Shown: positions 23,928 through 32,670, counted from the first letter of the stretch. The stretch is DNA of 64,000 bases from Phycisphaerae bacterium (GCA_019636475.1 JAHBXN010000005.1:186001-250000); one strand, 5' to 3'. Notes: generated by a model from the letters alone, not told the origin. Numbers and translations: made by a program.

Positions 23928-24491
23928 TCAGACGCGCGACATGTATTCGCCGGTGCGCGTATCGATTCTGATCTTTTCGCCAATCGTGATGAACGGCGGG
24001 GCCCGAAGCTTGTAACCCGTCTCGACGACGATTTCCTTCGTCTGGTTCGTCGCGGTAGCCCCTTTGACGACCGGCGGCGCGTCTGTCACCTCCAACTCGA
24101 CGGTATTGGGCAGATCGACGCCGACGATTTCGCCGTTGAGCAACTTGCACATGACGGTCTCGTTGCCCTTTAGGAAATGGTCCGCATCCGGCATGAGGTC
24201 GCGCGACACGGGAATCTGATCGTACGTGTCCGTATTCATCAGGATGTATGAATCGCCGTCGCGATAAAGAAACTCGAACGGCCGGTCCTCGACAAACGGC
24301 ACTTCAAACTGGTCATCCATGTTGAAGCGGTTGTCGATGATTTTTCCGGTTCGGAAGTTCTTCAGCTTGACGTTCATGTAGCTGCGCCAGTTGCCTTTGG
24401 CGACCCGGTCAGACTCATGAACAATCCAGAGATCGTTCTCGTGGACCAGCGTCAGCCCTTTTCGAATATCGATTGCCTTAATCTTGCTCAT
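23928..24491 (-). CDS. efp: Elongation factor P, atypical tip loop
   Basis: Encodes 187 residues, the normal EF-P length, with three OB/KOW-like domains. The C-terminus matches strongly (ETGYKLRAPPFITIGEKIRI, DTRTGEYMSR). EF-P enters the ribosome E site and relieves stalling at polyproline. The loop that carries the modified Lys34 in E. coli (PGKGGA) reads VAKGNWRSYMNVKLKN here: counted from KLKN the usual position is Asn, the Lys is two residues early and an Arg two residues late. Which residue is modified, if any, is unclear. No epmA/epmB, earP or ymfI-type modification gene is visible. It heads the efp-accB-accC run. Confidence 0.93.
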   Translation of the reverse strand: MSKIKAIDIRKGLTLVHENDLWIVHESDRVAKGNWRSYMNVKLKNFRTGKIIDNRFNMDDQFEVPFVEDRPFEFLYRDGDSYILMNTDTYDQIPVSRDLMPDADHFLKGNETVMCKLLNGEIVGVDLPNTVELEVTDAPPVVKGATATNQTKEIVVETGYKLRAPPFITIGEKIRIDTRTGEYMSRV

Positions 24492-24749: not shown

Positions 24750-25175
24750 GTGTGGCTCTCTGAGATCGGAAAATTTGTCGGAGCCAAGGTCGCCGGAGCG
24801 ATCATCACCGTCGCGGTGCTCGCGGGCGGATTCTGGTGCTATCGCAACTGGGATCAGGTCGAAGCATTCGGACGCATCGTCAAGCTGGTCCTCGCATGGC
24901 TTGTCGTCGTCGCCGTGCTGCCATGGACAAGTTTCTTCTTCATGCGGCAGTTTCTCGAGTATCAGTCGTCGCTCACCAGCGCGCGTTTCGCACATTTTGC
25001 GAGCGTCGCGATCATCGCAGCCTATTGGATCGTAGACATCTTCGCAGCGCTCTGGCTGGCGGACTGGAGCATCGCGGGCGGCTTCACCTGGTGCGTTGTT
25101 TTGCTTGGTTTCATCGCAGCCGGGGCCTACAATTATGTAATCTGCGAGTCGTTGGCGAGACGAATCGACTCGTAA
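24750..25175 (+). CDS. Small four-helix membrane protein of unknown function
   Basis: Encodes 141 residues from a GTG preceded by AAAGGA. Hydrophobic segments lie at about 10-30, 44-66, 82-103 and 108-130, so it should be an inner-membrane protein with little outside the bilayer. No family is recognised. It is the first gene of the same-strand run that continues with the Ser/Thr kinase 43 bases later, so it may be a membrane partner of that system. Confidence 0.65.
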   Translation: MWLSEIGKFVGAKVAGAIITVAVLAGGFWCYRNWDQVEAFGRIVKLVLAWLVVVAVLPWTSFFFMRQFLEYQSSLTSARFAHFASVAIIAAYWIVDIFAALWLADWSIAGGFTWCVVLLGFIAAGAYNYVICESLARRIDS

Positions 25176-25218
25176 TCGCCTTGATCGTATCACTCCATTC
25201 ACGAGCGAAGGAATCGCC

Positions 25219-26358
25219 ATGAACGGACCGAAGGCCGGAGATCGAATCAGCGAGTACATCCTTGATCGCATGGTCGGAGCCGGCAGCTTTGGCCAAGTCT
25301 GGAAAGCGCGCCATCATATCTGGAAAGACAACGTCGTTGCGGTCAAAGTACCGACTGATTCCCAGTACGTGCGAAATCTTCAGAAAGAGGGCACGGTCAT
25401 CCATGGCCTGCGCCACGCGAATATCGTGCGAGCGATCGGTCTCGATCCCTATGCCGAAACTCCATACCTCATTATGGAGTTCGTCGAAGGCTGCTCACTG
25501 AGGGAATTGATCAACGCCCATCCCCGCGGCATGCCGATCCGGGCCGCCCAGAACGTCGTCTGCGCTCTGCTCGCCGCTCTCGATCATGCCCATTCCGCCG
25601 GCGTCGTACACCGGGATATCAAGCCCGCGAACATTCTCATTGTTGGCGGCGATGCCAAGGACGCCGAACAATTGACGACAGCCGATGTCAAAGTCACCGA
25701 TTTCGGCCTCGGACATATCGGCGAGATTACCACGCAGAGCATCATGCAATCGGGCAGTATGCTCGCGGAGGATGGCCGGAGTATTTCCGGCACGCTCGCC
25801 TACATGTCTCCGGAGCAGCGAGACGGCCAGGCAATCGATGGCCGCAGCGATCTGTATGCCGTTGGCATCGTCCTGTTCGAAATGATCACCGGCGAACGAC
25901 CAAGCGGCAGCGACATGCCCTCCGAGCTTCGCGCCGGGCTGCCCACGTGGGTCGACCGGATTTACTCCCGAATGTACACGCGTCGGGAGCGCCGGTTCGA
26001 GACCGCCTCACAGGCATTGAGCGAAATCCTGTCGAGCAGCGTTCCGCCGATTGCCCGCGGGCACCTGTCGCCTGTTTCCCCGGGCGCGACACCTTCGAAC
26101 GAGCTGCCCGGCAGTGCGACGGTTTATCACCCAAGCGGCAGCGCCGCGCCTCCGGTCCTGACCGGGCGGGGCATCGGCACTGTGAGCTGTCCCGCGTGTG
26201 GCACGAAGCTCGACGCGGGAGACAACTTCTGCATCATGTGCGGCACCCAGGTCGTCGCCCAACCTCGCCGGTGTTCCCACTGCGCGTCGTATCCCGGCCC
26301 GGACGACAAGTACTGCGTGTTCTGCGGCACGCCTTTGCCTGACGATGCGGGAATTTGA
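25219..26358 (+). CDS. Hanks-type Ser/Thr protein kinase with two C-terminal zinc ribbons
   Basis: Encodes 379 residues; GAAGGA precedes the ATG. The kinase domain (about 11-271) is complete: Gly loop VGAGSFGQVW, Lys43 in AVKV, catalytic VHRDIKPANIL (Asp133), DFGLG at 161-165, activation segment ending GTLAYMSPEQ, and SDLYAVGIVLFEM. A Pro/Ser-rich linker leads to two zinc ribbons, CPAC ... CIMCG (about 324-342) and CSHC ... CVFCG (about 353-370). No membrane segment is present, unlike PknB-type sensors. The ribbons may bind partners. It sits in the run of genes encoding ESCRT-III-like and PspC proteins and is a candidate regulator of them. Confidence 0.9.
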   Translation: MNGPKAGDRISEYILDRMVGAGSFGQVWKARHHIWKDNVVAVKVPTDSQYVRNLQKEGTVIHGLRHANIVRAIGLDPYAETPYLIMEFVEGCSLRELINAHPRGMPIRAAQNVVCALLAALDHAHSAGVVHRDIKPANILIVGGDAKDAEQLTTADVKVTDFGLGHIGEITTQSIMQSGSMLAEDGRSISGTLAYMSPEQRDGQAIDGRSDLYAVGIVLFEMITGERPSGSDMPSELRAGLPTWVDRIYSRMYTRRERRFETASQALSEILSSSVPPIARGHLSPVSPGATPSNELPGSATVYHPSGSAAPPVLTGRGIGTVSCPACGTKLDAGDNFCIMCGTQVVAQPRRCSHCASYPGPDDKYCVFCGTPLPDDAGI

Positions 26359-26424
26359 GCGCCACCGGCCCGGCTCCCCAGGGTCGAGGCCGGCATGATG
26401 CGCATCAGGAAAGGGGAGCGTACG

Positions 26425-26733
26425 ATGGTCTTCATCGGCACCGGGCATGGCACGCTTGCTACGCTGGGTTTTATGCTCTTCGCAATGTTCGTCTTGATGG
26501 CATTCGTTGTCATCGGCCGGGCCGTCGCACGCTGCAATCAATCAGATGCCTTCAAAGACGCAAAGCCAGATTTTTTTCTCGACAAATACGTCTCTCCGTT
26601 CGCCAGCGGATCCGCGGTTGAATCGGGCGCGGAGTGGACGTGCAACGACCCCATGTGCCGGGCGTCAAATTCGGCTCACGCCCGTTTCTGCCGACTCTGC
26701 GGCACACCGCGGAACGGGGCCGACTCACGGTGA
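26425..26733 (+). CDS. Single-span membrane protein with RanBP2/NZF-type zinc finger
   Basis: Encodes 102 residues; GGGGAG eight bases upstream favours this ATG over the one at 26395. A membrane helix runs about 9-31. The C-terminal soluble part contains W-x-C-x4-C-x3-N-x6-C-x2-C (Trp71, Cys73, Cys78, Asn82, Cys89, Cys92), an exact match to the RanBP2/Npl4 zinc-finger consensus. In eukaryotes this fold binds ubiquitin, RNA or proteins; in bacteria its partners are mostly unknown. It lies between the kinase and the winged-helix/ESCRT-III-like gene. A role as membrane-bound adaptor is inference. Confidence 0.7.
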   Translation: MVFIGTGHGTLATLGFMLFAMFVLMAFVVIGRAVARCNQSDAFKDAKPDFFLDKYVSPFASGSAVESGAEWTCNDPMCRASNSAHARFCRLCGTPRNGADSR

Positions 26734-26923
26734 ATCAATCGAACTTCGCCCGAGGACGACCCCCGCCCGTGCCGACGCAGGTCCGAATGTTCGTTTTCCA
26801 CGATTTCGGCCTCGATATTTCCAACGCATTTGACAACACTATCCAAGGGACAGGCGGATAGGTAGGAAGGACAAGCCGGGCGCGGTAGAGTAGCTTTCTG
26901 GACATTTGGCTGATACTTGCAAC

Positions 26924-28345
26924 ATGAAGAACGCCGCACAAATCGCCAGGGAAGTTGAGTCGAGCTATCTCGGCGGGGTCTCCGCCAACCTGAAGACCAC
27001 CGGCAGCCGTTTCATTGCGGGTCAGTGGTTTCGGCGTGAGGAGACCGACAACGGCGAGCGCGTCCGGGCCGCGATGGTCGATCGGCGAATCTACGATCGC
27101 GAGAAGTTCAATGAACTGCCGCACGGGAGAACCGTCACCGTACGCGGCTATGAGCGCCGCTGGATCTTCGGCCGTCGCATCAAGAGCGTGACCGTGGCGA
27201 CCGTTATGGCGCCACCCGGGCCGCTGCTGGATGAAGGGCAATCCGGCTCGCCCCCCCCGCCGATCACGAAATCGCAGTTGCTCGACCATATCAGCCGACT
27301 GATCACCGACGGCAAGGCCGTTCACCTGGTCGGCGTATGCAGCCCGAGCGGCTTTGAGGATGATGTATGGAATCATCCGCCGCAATTGCCGAATGTGAAA
27401 TTGATCCTCGTCGCACCGCGACCGGACGGCGGCTGGCGAGTCGTCCCCGCCGATTCCCGGATCGATGCGCGCCTGGTCAAGCTGTTCGACCCCGAGGAAA
27501 ACTCGCAGAAGCTCAATCGAATCCGGCAGGAGATCGAGGCCCGTCGAATCGATCTTCTGACCGGCAGCCTCTCTGCGACCCAACTCGCGCGGGAACTGGA
27601 TTTGCCAGTCCCGCTCGTCAACAATGCATTTGAGGCCATCGCCCGCACCGATCCGGAGTTGCGGGTCTCCAAGCGCGGCGGAGAGGCCGTGATGTATCGC
27701 GGCGCGACCAAAACATCGGCCGAGGAGGACCGTTCGATGTCTCTTGCGGAATGGATACGCGGTCTCTTCTCAAAAGAAGGAGAAGAACTCAAAAAGATCA
27801 ACGTGCTGTCTGAGAAACGGGCGTCGCTCTCGACCCGCCTTGACAGAATGTACGAAGACATCGGCGCACTGGAAAAACGCGAAGCCAGGCTGATGGAGGA
27901 AGGAAAGGCCGCAAATTCGACCGTGACCAAGCGCCGAGTGGCTGCCCAGGTCGCTCGATTGCGAAAAGACATCAGCCGCTACAACACGAGTGCGTCAATT
28001 CTCAGCAAGCAGATCAACGTCATCAGCACACACATCCATAACCTCGAACTGGCACAGACCGGCAGTCTCGCATCACTGCCGTCCACGGACGAATTGACCG
28101 AAGCGGCCGTCAATGCCGAAGAAATTCTCGAACAGCTCGGCGCCAGCGATGCACTGGTGAGCAGCCTTGAAGTGAGCATGGCTGATACGGCGATGTCGGA
28201 CGATGAAGCGGACATTCTGAACGAGCTTCTTGGGGAGGCCGAGGACGCGGCCAAAGTCTCGCCGGAGAAATCTGCCGCCAGCCGGCCGCAGAAGTCCGCG
28301 CCGTCGAAGGAGAAATCCGCCGGCGATCCCGCAGCGGAAGGATAA
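26924..28345 (+). CDS. Winged-helix plus ESCRT-III/Snf7-like helical protein
   Basis: Encodes 473 residues from MKNAAQIAREV; a TTG 18 bases earlier is possible. Residues 1-100 form a small beta-rich domain (HGRTVTVRGYERRW). Residues 115-190 are an alpha/beta domain (AVHLVGVCSPSGFEDD). About 200-260 reads as a winged helix (SATQLARELDLPVPLVNNAF, then a basic wing with MYR). From about 270 begins an ESCRT-III-like plan: amphipathic MSLAEWIRGLFSK, a charged coiled coil (LSTRLDRMYEDIGALEKREA), a basic segment TKRRVAAQVARLRKDISRY, more helices, then acidic SDDEADILNELL and a Lys/Ser/Pro tail. The order winged helix then Snf7-like domain recalls eukaryotic CHMP7. The assignment rests on pattern only; a PspA-like helical protein is the alternative. 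Confidence 0.6.
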   Translation: MKNAAQIAREVESSYLGGVSANLKTTGSRFIAGQWFRREETDNGERVRAAMVDRRIYDREKFNELPHGRTVTVRGYERRWIFGRRIKSVTVATVMAPPGPLLDEGQSGSPPPPITKSQLLDHISRLITDGKAVHLVGVCSPSGFEDDVWNHPPQLPNVKLILVAPRPDGGWRVVPADSRIDARLVKLFDPEENSQKLNRIRQEIEARRIDLLTGSLSATQLARELDLPVPLVNNAFEAIARTDPELRVSKRGGEAVMYRGATKTSAEEDRSMSLAEWIRGLFSKEGEELKKINVLSEKRASLSTRLDRMYEDIGALEKREARLMEEGKAANSTVTKRRVAAQVARLRKDISRYNTSASILSKQINVISTHIHNLELAQTGSLASLPSTDELTEAAVNAEEILEQLGASDALVSSLEVSMADTAMSDDEADILNELLGEAEDAAKVSPEKSAASRPQKSAPSKEKSAGDPAAEG

Positions 28346-28496
28346 ACGGGGCGATCGGAAAGTCTGCGCGATGAATGCAGGCGGGACGACAGGCTCAGGA
28401 AAATAGATTTGCGGAACGATGTGGTCTTATTCAGCGGACGGCATTTCAGGCGGCTGCTGCGTTCTACCGGATCAGCTCGATCTTGATTGGTGACGA

Positions 28497-29102
28497 ATGG
28501 GTTTATTCGATTGGCTGACAAAATCCTCCAAATCGCTCTCGCAGATGACGCGCAGTGAGCTGCGCCGGCAGGAACTGCTGCTGCAGCGCGAACGCGACCA
28601 GCTCATCAAGCGCATCTCCGATCTGGCCATCCAGAAGCAGGAGGTTTTTGAACGCGGTCGCGGCGAGAAATCGCCGGAAGTGCGACGCGTTCTGGCGCAG
28701 GAATTCGACCTGAAAACCACTGAACAGCTTATGGCCTCGCGACAGTTGAATATCCGCAGCAAGGAAGCGGTCACCGTCACGCGCATGAGAATGCTTCGTG
28801 AAAACGCCGAACGCGCCAAGGCCCGCGGCAGCAAGCTCGGCCTGATCAGCGAAAAAGACCTGATCGCTCTGGAAAAAATGATCGAGAACGACAACGTCAC
28901 CGCCGAGATGTATCAGGAGCGGCTCGATGATATGCTCAGAACCGGCCTTGAAGAGGGCGAGAGCATGTTGACGCCCGGCACGCAGCAGGTGCTGGATATC
29001 TGGGACCAGATGGACACGGGGCTGGTCAAGGACAAGGATCAGGCATTCGAAGAGGCCGACCGCCGCGTGCGAGAACGCCACAAGGCATCGGAGGGCGGCT
29101 AG
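28497..29102 (+). CDS. ESCRT-III/PspA-like helical protein
   Basis: Encodes 201 residues. It starts MGLFDWLTKS, an amphipathic anchor like those at the N-termini of PspA/Vipp1 and Snf7. A long charged helical hairpin follows at about 18-110 (RRQELLLQRERDQLIKRISD; then RVLAQEFDLKTTEQLMAS), and shorter helices to 150 (DLIALEKMIENDN). There is no Cys, no membrane span and no enzyme motif. Length and plan fit ESCRT-III superfamily members, which polymerise on membranes. It lies 150 bases after the winged-helix gene on the same strand, with two further helical or PspC members downstream. Confidence 0.55.
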   Translation: MGLFDWLTKSSKSLSQMTRSELRRQELLLQRERDQLIKRISDLAIQKQEVFERGRGEKSPEVRRVLAQEFDLKTTEQLMASRQLNIRSKEAVTVTRMRMLRENAERAKARGSKLGLISEKDLIALEKMIENDNVTAEMYQERLDDMLRTGLEEGESMLTPGTQQVLDIWDQMDTGLVKDKDQAFEEADRRVRERHKASEGG

Positions 29103-29201
29103 TCGCGCGACCGCTCGTTGCTCGCCCGGACAATGACGGTTCAGCGGAATTCGGCGTCAGGGAATGTCACCCCATTCGGTCCTCGCCGATTGAGAGTCTG
29201 A

Positions 29202-30080
29202 ATGCTTGAGATCTTCGTACAACGCCCGAAGGAAGACGTGGATTCATCGCTCGTCCAGTTTGCCGCGCGGCGTTCGTATCGAATCAGCAAGCCGTGGTAT
29301 CTGGACAGCATACGCATCGAAACCCCCTCCCCCACCCACGGCGCCTCAAACGTCCGCCGATTCTGGGCGGCCATGTTCGACTCGCCTCTGGAACCGCGAA
29401 TTGATGTGGAAACGCGCCGAAAGCGAAGCGGCACGCGGGTCCGCGTGGTCATCGCCAACACACCGGAAAGCACTCGCTTGGCCTATGAGCTGCACTCCTT
29501 CCTGCTGGATGACCGGTCGTTTGACCGCAACTTGCCTACCATCTGTCCCCGTTGTTCGACACCCATCTCGAATCTCACGTCCCGCTACTGTGGCCGTTGC
29601 GGACACAAGCTCGTCGCCAACGGCCTCGAACCTCGAATTCGTGAATTCCCCGGAATTGTGCCGCCCGTTCCCGAGGAAATGACTTCACGTGTCCGATTGG
29701 AGCGCGACGCCAGTCCGCCGAAAATCGAACAGCCGGCGACAAACATCATGGAGCAATCCTTTGAACGGCCGGTTCGCGCGATGCAGATGCCGCCGGTTAC
29801 TGCCGAATCGAGCGATAACGCCAATACACGAGAAGCTGATTCGCCGGAATCCGAATCGGCCAATCCGGAGTCACCGAATTCGGATGATTCCGGAAAGGAA
29901 TCTCTCCCGGAGGATGAAACCGGAATCGAGAAAAATAAACCCGAACCTGAACGCCAATCCGAAACCGAAGGCCATGCGCCAGAGCAAGTCTCCGCTGAAC
30001 CACAGGCCGAAGCGGAGGCCGAATCGGACAGTGACGAATCACACGGGCGGCCCGACCGGCGAGCACTCGCCGAGGAGTAA
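29202..30080 (+). CDS. Zinc-ribbon protein with long acidic, Pro/Glu/Ser-rich tail
   Basis: Encodes 292 residues. Residues 1-110 form a compact alpha/beta region (MLEIFVQRPKEDVDSSL; RVRVVIANTPESTRLAYELH) that I do not recognise. A zinc ribbon follows (CPRC ... YCGRCGHKL; Cys115, 118, 130, 133). From about 200 to the end it is a low-complexity tail rich in Glu, Ser, Pro and Asp, probably disordered. Its terminal GAGGAG doubles as the ribosome site of the pspC-like gene, so the two are translationally close. The acidic tail could bind basic helical proteins of the cluster; that is speculation. Confidence 0.6.
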   Translation: MLEIFVQRPKEDVDSSLVQFAARRSYRISKPWYLDSIRIETPSPTHGASNVRRFWAAMFDSPLEPRIDVETRRKRSGTRVRVVIANTPESTRLAYELHSFLLDDRSFDRNLPTICPRCSTPISNLTSRYCGRCGHKLVANGLEPRIREFPGIVPPVPEEMTSRVRLERDASPPKIEQPATNIMEQSFERPVRAMQMPPVTAESSDNANTREADSPESESANPESPNSDDSGKESLPEDETGIEKNKPEPERQSETEGHAPEQVSAEPQAEAEAESDSDESHGRPDRRALAEE

Positions 30081-30085
30081 TCAAC

Positions 30086-30280
30086 ATGGGTTTGGGCAGA
30101 CAGCTTCGGCGATCGCGCCATAACAGAATGATCGGGGGCGTCGTGGGCGGCCTCGCGGAGTATTTCGGCATCGGTCCGACGCTCGCCAGAGTGGGTTATG
30201 TCATACTTTCGATCTGTTCTGCGGCGTTTCCGGGTATATTGGTCTATGTGATCTGCTGGCTGGTGATCCCGGAGGAATAG
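30086..30280 (+). CDS. PspC-domain small membrane protein
   Basis: Encodes 64 residues, the whole of a PspC domain: RSRHNRMIGGVVGGLAEYFG, then PTLARVGYVIL and a hydrophobic stretch ending YVICWLVIPEE. PspC is an inner-membrane component of the phage-shock response, where it cooperates with PspA, a bacterial ESCRT-III relative. It begins five bases after the zinc-ribbon gene and 119 bases before a third ESCRT-III-like gene. This link to PspA-type biology is the strongest independent support for a membrane-remodelling role of the locus. Confidence 0.9.
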   Translation: MGLGRQLRRSRHNRMIGGVVGGLAEYFGIGPTLARVGYVILSICSAAFPGILVYVICWLVIPEE

Positions 30281-30399
30281 CGATCGCATCGCATTGAGCC
30301 CGGTGTCGATTCCTTCGCCGGAGCGTACAATCGTATGACCCTGAAAAATGCGATTCCGGCGACCTTGATCCACTCCGGCACTCAGAAAGGCTGAAAACG

Positions 30400-31008
30400 A
30401 TGAGCTTGTTCAAATCATCCGAGGAGCGCCGCATCGAGCGCGATATCAAAATTCGCCAGGGCATCCGGCGCATCGAAAAGGCCATTTCCGAGCAGAACAA
30501 GTTCACCAGCGATTTCATTCGAAACGCCCGCCGCGCGAAGGACATCGGCGACGCAAACCAATACAACTTCATTCGCAATTCGCTCAAGAAAACCGCCACG
30601 GTCAAGAAGATGCTCGAGCGCCAGCTCCTGGCCGTGAAGAGCGCCCTGATCATCAAGCGGCAGGCCGAGGCATCAACTGATTTTGCGCAGGCAATGGGCA
30701 CGATGGCGCGCGAGATCAGCCGGATGTTCGGCGAAACCGATCTCGTCAAGACACAGATGGACTGGGAAAAAGCCATGGCCCAATCGCAGACCATGGAAGA
30801 GCGAACGACGATGTTCCTCGAAACCATTGAATCCGCCGCGATGAGCGACACGGCTGACACGCCTGCCGAAGTCATCACGGATGCCGAGATTGACGCCATG
30901 ATCGAAGCGGAGGCGGAATCGGCCCATGCCAAGGATGTCGACGAACTCGATGCACTTCGCGCCGAGCTCAACGCAGTGAAGGACAGCGGCCAGAAAGAAT
31001 CGAAGTAG
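30400..31008 (+). CDS. ESCRT-III-like protein resembling CHMP2/Vps2
   Basis: Encodes 202 residues, close to the size of eukaryotic CHMP proteins. Start MSLFKSSEERRIERDIKIRQ gives a short anchor and basic helix 1. Helices 1-2 (IRRIEKAISEQNKF; FIRNARRAKDIGD; FIRNSLKKTATVKKMLERQL) form a charged hairpin. Next comes FAQAMGTMAREISRMF and a Met-rich helix ending TMEERTTMFLETIESAAMSD. The order resembles the CHMP2 pattern of an AMxxxxxAMxxM helix, a Met/Glu-rich helix and an acidic tail. The tail (EIDAMIEAEAES; DELDALRAEL) is acidic with a Leu-rich last helix where MIT-interacting motifs lie in ESCRT-III, but it is not an exact MIM1 match. AAAGG precedes the start. It is the last gene of the run. 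Confidence 0.62.
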   Translation: MSLFKSSEERRIERDIKIRQGIRRIEKAISEQNKFTSDFIRNARRAKDIGDANQYNFIRNSLKKTATVKKMLERQLLAVKSALIIKRQAEASTDFAQAMGTMAREISRMFGETDLVKTQMDWEKAMAQSQTMEERTTMFLETIESAAMSDTADTPAEVITDAEIDAMIEAEAESAHAKDVDELDALRAELNAVKDSGQKESK

Positions 31009-31052: not shown

Positions 31053-32633
31053 TCAATCCCGCTCCGGCCGATGCCGGTCTTTTTCACGAGTCGTCCGGCA
31101 GTCGGTATCATCAAGCCGCTTTCGAGATCGCGCGGATGGTGCTGCCGCACGCGAATTATCCGGATGCTGTAGCGGATACTCACCCTCCCGATCCCACAGA
31201 TAATAAACCGGTGGCCTGCCGATCAGATGGCGAAACGATTGTGTCAATTGCGCGGCACCCCAACCGGCGATCTTGTCGCGCATCGGGCCGTGCATCGCGC
31301 CCGCCCACGAGCGCACCGTTTCCCGGATCAGCCTCTGAACGCGCGGAGTGCGTGCGACGCGTCGCTCAAAATCCGGCGAGAAAGGATCCAGCTTCCACAT
31401 TCGGAGGCGTTCGAGCAGTGAAAGCCGCCCCTTCGGCAGCGGGCACTCCCCCACACGCATCATGCCCGCCCGCTCGAAGACCGGATTTACCATCCCCATT
31501 GCCGCGAGACACTCAATGAACCGCACCCCCACTCTCGGCAGCGTTTTTCGCACAAACCAGTGCCCCAGGCCGCAACCCCGGACATCGGGATGCATCACCA
31601 GCCGCCGCAGAATGCGAAGTTCGCGGTTGATGCGCGGAAGATTTCGTGCGAAACGGCCGCCGGTCGAGGCATTCCGCAACGACAGCTCCATCGGAGCATG
31701 GGCAAAGACGAGGATGCCGAGCGGATCTCGCGTGGATTGCTCGCGCAGCAGAAACACCTTGTCCACGAAGCCCAAACCGTCGCGATGGCGGTAGTGCATC
31801 GGCGCGAAAGCCTGATAGTCCCGGACGCCGCCGGGCTCTATGACCACTCTGCGTCGAAGCCAGACCGCGCGAGATCGCACGGGACGCCGCACAACGACCG
31901 CCGGCCGATCGGCCGCAGCGAGGCGAACAACCTGATCGGCCTGAAGGTCGCGTAAAATGTCGTCGTGGGTCCCGGCGACGATCAGAATCAACCGGTGCCG
32001 GGTGATCAGCTTTCGCAGATTGTATGCCACGGCGCCCGCCAGTCGACGATGCAGAATGGCGGTGAATTCGTCACAGCAGACGACCGCCGGCGGCGTCGCG
32101 CTGAGTGCCTTTCCTATGGCACCTGCGAGGCTCGCGCGGAAACGCTCTCCGTCGGACAAGTCGCTGAACGCGCGCCCCCAGAGCCGAGGCTCGCCCAGGC
32201 CGCAGGCCGTCAGAATTTCGAGCGCGGTGGCAAGCGGTCGGCGCGGTGCGACATGATCGACGATCGAACGGCCCGATCGCGGCCGACTGCCGTTGACCCA
32301 CACGACGGGCCCGGCCTTCTCCGCGATCGCCCGGAGCAGGGAGCTTTTTCCGCTGCCCGAGGGACCGGTCAACAGCAGGATTGAGCCGGGACGAAGCGTC
32401 AATGTCAGGCGGTCGGCCACTGCAAACGGCGCTTCACGCGTTGGGATGCCGTAGTTCCAGCAGATTTCCCGCTTTCGCTCCGTCATCGGCGTCACGGCAG
32501 GTTCACGAATGACATGAACCTCGACTCGCACCTCCGCCTGTTCGGCAGACTCGCAACGAACCGAAGCCGGCCCGTCACCGCTCGAGAGACTCACTCGCGA
32601 TTTACATTTGTCACGACCCGGGAATTCCGCCAT
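31053..32633 (-). CDS. ABC-type ATPase fused to GNAT acetyltransferase-like domain
   Basis: Encodes 526 residues from MAEFPGRDK. The ATPase half (about 65-260) has Walker A LTGPSGSGKSSLLRA, signature FSDLSDGERFRASL, Walker B AVVCCDEFTAIL and an H-loop-like AGTHDD. The C-terminal half has a GNAT-like acetyl-CoA loop, MHPDVRGCGLGHWFVRK, followed by FERAGM. This matches the uncharacterised COG2401 family (ABC ATPase fused to predicted acetyltransferase). The substrate is unknown. It lies downstream of an S24-type repressor gene on the same strand, with an AT-rich block containing repeats in between, so it may be under that repressor's control. Confidence 0.8.
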   Translation of the reverse strand: MAEFPGRDKCKSRVSLSSGDGPASVRCESAEQAEVRVEVHVIREPAVTPMTERKREICWNYGIPTREAPFAVADRLTLTLRPGSILLLTGPSGSGKSSLLRAIAEKAGPVVWVNGSRPRSGRSIVDHVAPRRPLATALEILTACGLGEPRLWGRAFSDLSDGERFRASLAGAIGKALSATPPAVVCCDEFTAILHRRLAGAVAYNLRKLITRHRLILIVAGTHDDILRDLQADQVVRLAAADRPAVVVRRPVRSRAVWLRRRVVIEPGGVRDYQAFAPMHYRHRDGLGFVDKVFLLREQSTRDPLGILVFAHAPMELSLRNASTGGRFARNLPRINRELRILRRLVMHPDVRGCGLGHWFVRKTLPRVGVRFIECLAAMGMVNPVFERAGMMRVGECPLPKGRLSLLERLRMWKLDPFSPDFERRVARTPRVQRLIRETVRSWAGAMHGPMRDKIAGWGAAQLTQSFRHLIGRPPVYYLWDREGEYPLQHPDNSRAAAPSARSRKRLDDTDCRTTREKDRHRPERD

Positions 32634-32651
32634 CACTCGCCTCCATACCAT

Positions 32652-32670
32652 CCAAACATATACCAAACAT
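32652..32670. repeat. Direct repeat CCAAACAT spaced 11 bp
   Basis: CCAAACAT occurs at 32652-32659 and 32663-32670, one helical turn apart, just upstream of the ABC-GNAT start codon. With the adjacent inverted repeat it forms an AT-rich regulatory block. A protein-binding role is inferred. Confidence 0.4.

Follow-up and report, generated by a model that had tools for sequence, protein, structure and literature searches.

A gene cluster in a Phycisphaerae bacterium probably encodes the filament-forming part of an ESCRT-III/Vps4 system, here in a bacterium. The cluster lies in a stretch of 64,000 nucleotides (GCA_019636475.1 JAHBXN010000005.1:186001-250000); this whole stretch is called the window, and positions are counted from its first letter. 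Eight plus-strand open reading frames, separated by gaps of 5-190 bp, span positions 24750-31008 (Table 1). Both flanks are on the minus strand: EF-P at 23928-24491, and an open reading frame at 31053-32666. An earlier sequence-only reading had claimed eight same-strand genes here, all of which were found as open reading frames, and had proposed a bacterial ESCRT-III-like locus. That proposal is supported, and is strengthened by the homology of P0008 and by a Vps4-type ATPase.

ESCRT-III proteins sever membranes in animal and archaeal cells. According to PMC10936438 (2024), systems that pair ESCRT-III with Vps4 are found in archaea and eukaryotes alone. Bacteria do have Vps4-like ATPases, but there snf7 is displaced by an unrelated gene; some bacterial Snf7-clade proteins sit with AAA ATPases in transporter operons (PMC11237479). 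No description of a bacterial ESCRT-III and Vps4 pair was found in the searchable literature, a scope that leaves out bioRxiv and most subscription papers.

Table 1. Features of the locus, in window positions.
Feature	Position	Strand	Basis
P0001, small membrane protein	24750..25175	+	family present in 36 fetched loci
P0002, Ser/Thr protein kinase with C-terminal double zinc ribbon	25219..26358	+	Pfam Pkinase 4.1e-39, Zn_Ribbon_1 1.9e-8
P0003, membrane protein with weak RanBP/zinc-ribbon finger	26395..26733	+	no homologue in fetched loci; probably accessory
P0004, 473-aa fusion: alpha/beta, winged helix, ESCRT-III-like helical domain	26924..28345	+	47 conserved fusions; AF2; fold matches
AGGAGG Shine-Dalgarno 5' of internal start in P0004	27723..27728	+	sequence
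Internal ATG (P0004 residue 272) and predicted 202-aa stand-alone ESCRT-III-like subunit	27737..28345	+	ATG kept in 47/47
P0005, helical protein homologous to P0004 C-terminal domain	28497..29102	+	hhalign P=96.8, E=2.9e-10
P0006, zinc-ribbon protein with acidic tail	29202..30080	+	no homologue among fetched loci
P0007, PspC-domain membrane protein	30086..30280	+	Pfam PspC 2e-24
P0008, ESCRT-III homologue, 202 aa, core marker of the system	30400..31008	+	profile, Snf7, AF2, Foldseek

P0008 and the ESCRT-III family

As judged from its family profile, P0008 is an ESCRT-III homologue. Compared with all PDB chains, the profile found ESCRT-III proteins as eight of nine matches at E<10 in the first search, and as all six in the other; among these ESCRT-III chains were CHMP3 (0.001) and Snf7 (7e-4). 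The Pfam family Snf7 (PF03357) was matched by 24 of the 56 P0008 members (best 2.3e-6), and the runner-up family by five. The window's own P0008, taken alone, has one Pfam match, to Snf7 at E=0.14, below the cut-off; indeed, the Pfam search of the window returned no accepted match for the own sequence of any of the three helical proteins. The family result is not a generic coiled-coil effect, because the profile of P0005, helical and of equal length, has no ESCRT-III match. Profile searches, the check proposed in the sequence-only reading, assign P0008 to ESCRT-III/Snf7 rather than to an unrelated family of coiled coils.

The AF2 model of P0008 (pLDDT 76) has helices at residues 7-49, 52-109, 116-128, 132-147, and 161-201. 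The first two form the alpha1-alpha2/3 hairpin of ESCRT-III, and shorter helices follow. Foldseek with this model ranked CHMP2A first, followed mostly by CHMP1B, Loki CHMP4-7, Snf7, Vps24, and CdvB, ESCRT-III chains that come from eukaryotes, Asgard archaea, and Sulfolobus. The Foldseek E-values give only weak support, and the fit to Asgard ESCRT-IIIB, with a VIA Z of 10.7, is not much better than helical background. A long helical hairpin resembles many proteins, which keeps the structural scores modest, so the ESCRT-III assignment is carried by the sequence evidence.

A strict MIM1 motif at the C-terminus, suggested by two sequences, did not hold for the family: no member of 56 carries it, and 13 of 56 match a relaxed pattern. 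The C-terminal helix is conserved.

P0008 occurs in 41 of the 199 Planctomycetota genomes searched, and in 41 of the 150 genomes of the window's class; almost every member sampled from the window's order is among them. A scan of GTDB contigs recovered 99 relatives, almost all from Planctomycetota, with one Sumerlaeota and one Hydrogenedentes record. The gene set is widespread yet patchy across the phylum, and core in the window's order.

A distant relative (28.5% over 60%, E=8e-5) is encoded on the Candidatus Chlorohelix plasmid NZ_CP128401.1 (L204, 8941-9519). Its sole Pfam match is Snf7 (0.069), and beta-propeller and FHA-domain genes lie beside it. This suggests, from similarity alone, that the P0008 family reaches beyond Planctomycetota. 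(A mobile-element origin was considered and rejected: plasmid matches to P0008 come to one distant Chloroflexota protein, and the ATPase matches phage records only in part, with 30-35% identity.)

P0004, P0005, and a conserved internal start codon

P0004 has three parts: residues 1-180 are an alpha/beta domain, about 191-261 a winged helix, and about 272-445 a helical domain that is ESCRT-III-like. The AF2 model of the fusion (pLDDT 87.5) places helices of the last part at 274-282, 288-329, 333-382, 389-420, and 424-444, so that residues 274-444 form a hairpin plus shorter helices as in ESCRT-III. The best fold matches of this part are Asgard ESCRT-IIIB, Shrub, and CHMP1B, intermixed with BAR domains. 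The winged helix has fold matches to many winged-helix proteins. The fusion is conserved in 47 loci; in Planctomycetota outside Phycisphaerae, its halves are separate adjacent genes. The alpha/beta domain (26924-27460) has a confident model and no clear relative in Pfam or in fold searches, although the latter barely test the point.

CHMP7 joins a winged helix and ESCRT-III within a single chain; archaeal CdvB is likewise ESCRT-III plus a winged helix. P0004 also fuses a winged helix to an ESCRT-III-like domain, but its single N-terminal winged helix comes after an alpha/beta domain, and its internal start, which is conserved, is predicted to yield the ESCRT-III part by itself. Whereas ESCRT-II (Vps25/22/36) has tandem winged helices, one was found in P0004, behind the alpha/beta domain (a second was not separately sought).

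P0005 and the helical domain of P0004 are homologous (Table 1), and each is homologous to positional counterparts, E3 and E2, in other classes. In these profile-profile comparisons, controls with reversed profiles gave P below 4. The link of P0008 to this group is weak (P=18.8, through E3), and profile searches with P0005 for ESCRT-III, including the PDB, gave no direct match. For P0005 and the P0004 C-terminal part, the label ESCRT-III-like therefore reflects mutual homology, fold, and gene context, without a direct ESCRT-III sequence match. The sequence-only reading had treated all three helical proteins as ESCRT-III-like candidates; this holds by sequence for P0008, but P0005 and the P0004 tail lack that direct support.

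One short amphipathic start in that reading, MSLAEWIRG, does not begin a separate open reading frame, but corresponds to residue 272 of P0004. Nevertheless, it lies at an internal ATG that has a perfect AGGAGG and is conserved. Each of the 47 fusions has a methionine within four columns of the domain junction, 85% of them in the exact column, which is the most Met-conserved column of the P0004 alignment. A Shine-Dalgarno sequence of at least 5 nt precedes the junction ATG in 24 of 47 fusions, versus 8 of 387 other internal Met codons in the same genes. (These counts are not independent, because the loci are related.) An ATG kept at the junction in every fusion, usually after a Shine-Dalgarno sequence, points to a gene that probably makes two products, including a free ESCRT-III-like subunit; use of the internal start is inferred.

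Vps4-type ATPases and accessory genes

No Vps4/AAA gene lies inside the window. The sequence-only reading had remarked on this absence of a Vps4/MIT ATPase, correctly for the window, but the genome carries a Vps4-type ATPase on another contig. Among 52 adequately flanked loci (those with 4 kb present on both sides of P0008), 40 have a single-AAA ATPase at most 4 kb from P0008. In the window's genome, ATPase 2 and its propeller partner are intact but elsewhere, on contig C8 (ATPase 139300-140430, propeller gene adjoining). This ATPase (371 aa) has an AAA match of 9e-41, and its best single-AAA PDB match is archaeal CdvC/Vps4, which aligns at residues 20-369 (2.1e-56). It shares 51% identity over nearly its full length with the P0008-adjacent ATPase of another locus, L086. 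Vps4_C was detected in 24 of 28 ATPase relatives (best 1.1e-6), and the window genome's copy scored 20.9 bits against a cut-off of 21.3.

A second protein, ATPase 1, is found in relatives. The four best PDB matches of its N-domain are all Vps4 MIT domains; in Pfam, this domain matched TPR_2 in six of 16 cases and MIT in two of 16. The N-domain of ATPase 2, related to that of ATPase 1 (P=93), also is similar to TPR repeats, and TPR-like alternatives to MIT remain possible.

ATPase 2 and P0008 are inherited together. High-scoring ATPase 2 orthologues (at least 305 bits; remaining matches at most 234) were found in 27 of 199 Planctomycetota genomes, 26 of which also carry P0008 (Fisher 6e-21, without correction for phylogeny). 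ATPase 2 is missing from one family of genomes that have P0008, and there ATPase 1 is found in its place. The sequence-only reading had held that disassembly would need another factor; a Vps4-type AAA protein, usually adjacent in relatives and located elsewhere in this genome, fits that description, with disassembly itself inferred.

Gene order also proved to be conserved across Planctomycetota, as that reading had asked of its own proposal. Phycisphaerae have the order P0001, kinase, winged helix-ESCRT fusion, P0005, (PspC), P0008, ATPase 2, and propeller. The L086 order is winged-helix gene, gene like the P0004 C-terminal part, P0005-like gene, ATPase 1, P0008, ATPase 2, propeller, P0001-like gene, and kinase.

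The propeller protein beside the ATPase (L122, 7504-9249) is WD40-like in its C-terminal half; its N-terminal 260 or so residues have no convincing match. An SPFH/band-7 domain suspected there by eye was supported by neither Pfam nor the PDB, so the protein is named just for its propeller, and its N-domain remains unknown.

Could the likeness be convergence, an unrelated coiled-coil scaffold having arrived at an ESCRT-like hairpin, while the ATPase is an ordinary unfoldase of Cdc48 type that acts on other substrates? The structural Z scores are within the generic helical-bundle range, P0005 has no ESCRT-III match, and the AAA domains of the ATPases are near Cdc48/p97 as well as Vps4. Yet convergence would require ESCRT-III-only PDB and Pfam matches, the MIT and Vps4_C similarities, the CdvC alignment, and the tight linkage to coincide by chance, and is very unlikely.

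Accessory genes are less uniform. The kinase with zinc ribbons and the PspC protein, both named in the sequence-only reading, were confirmed by Pfam (Table 1). A kinase lies close to P0008 in 36 of the 52 well-flanked loci, and PspC is present in 13 fetched loci, counting the window. Relatives of P0001 elsewhere in the phylum are about 300 aa long with an extra N-terminal domain, one with a weak LpoB match. No homologue of P0003 or P0006 turned up in any fetched locus, so neither is core. The membrane "NZF" finger, and with it a ubiquitin link, is not supported: the RanBP-type match in P0003 is weak (16.5 bits, cut-off 27), and the protein is in no other fetched locus.

The presence of PspC raises the possibility of a divergent Psp-type envelope-stress system, in which PspA relatives patch damaged membrane with PspC as their partner there, and the ATPase has no real part. 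PspA/Vipp1 do belong to the ESCRT-III superfamily (PMC8281802), a kinship shared at the level of fold, and AAA ATPases accompany some bacterial pspA genes (PMC11237479). However, PspA_IM30 (PF04012) is unmatched anywhere in the genome, by a search that was positive in nine control genomes; on this ground PspA membership was rejected. P0008 members match Snf7, and PspA_IM30 is outside their 25 most-matched families. Moreover, PspC is optional whereas the dedicated Vps4-type ATPase is usually present, and three distinct subunits with a winged-helix recruiter are not a Psp layout. A Psp-type system is therefore an unlikely account of the locus. PspC, present in a genome without a PspA_IM30 match, may serve the ESCRT-III-like set instead of PspA.

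A proposed machine and its cellular role

The favored reading, a filament-forming half of an ESCRT-III/Vps4 system, suggests a working model. Three ESCRT-III-type subunits with membrane-binding N-termini would be made: P0008, P0005, and the P0004 C-terminal part. They would attach to the inner membrane through these amphipathic N-termini, and then polymerize; both membrane binding and co-polymerization are inferred. The winged-helix part of P0004 may recruit or nucleate, and so be comparable to the winged helix of CHMP7 or CdvB, and internal initiation would yield a free subunit beside the recruiter-fused form. The AAA ATPase encoded on contig C8, with its putative MIT domain and partnered with the beta-propeller protein, would grip the C-terminal tails of the subunits and take the polymer apart, although binding of tails by such an MIT domain is likewise inferred, and in this genome the ATPase is unlinked to the locus. 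Finally, the kinase P0002, PspC, and the other membrane proteins may set the time and place of action; kinase control, too, is inference. No experiment exists on any of these steps.

Asgard archaea and eukaryotes provide the closest parallels: several ESCRT-III-type subunits, a locus shared with a winged-helix protein, and a single-AAA ATPase with a Vps4_C-like tail, whose N-domain here resembles MIT but also TPR repeats. The planctomycete set differs in being bacterial, in its very divergent subunits, in the added beta-propeller protein, and in that neither a strict MIM nor a ubiquitin link was seen. In archaeal ESCRT loci, too, ESCRT-III and winged-helix genes are accompanied by a Ser/Thr kinase and by zinc-ribbon proteins (Makarova et al. 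2024, PMC10936438).

What drives binary fission without FtsZ in Phycisphaerae and in the Brocadiales, or anammox bacteria, is a question raised previously (PMC6952346). FtsZ (TIGR00065) was not detected in the window's genome, nor did any of the 199 Planctomycetota genomes sampled give a match above the cut-off. (FtsZ-like matches below the ftsZ cut-off occur in a few Planctomycetota: G157, G041, G114, G145, and others.) It is conceivable, if doubtful at present, that FtsZ-less Planctomycetota (Phycisphaerae, Brocadiia) divide or shed vesicles through an ESCRT-III/Vps4 machine built like archaeal Cdv and eukaryotic abscission, and that the complete pair is not exclusively archaeal and eukaryotic. 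The cellular purpose is inferred: a role in FtsZ-less division is attractive but unproven, and membrane repair or vesicle formation is equally open. Most of the Phycisphaerae sampled lack the set, which rules it out as a general explanation of FtsZ-less fission.

The conserved internal start offers a concrete and quickly testable prediction. The set as a whole is a testable candidate for the driver of FtsZ-less fission in Phycisphaerae and anammox bacteria. Moreover, a widespread bacterial version would alter the account of the place of origin or the spread of this membrane-cutting machine.
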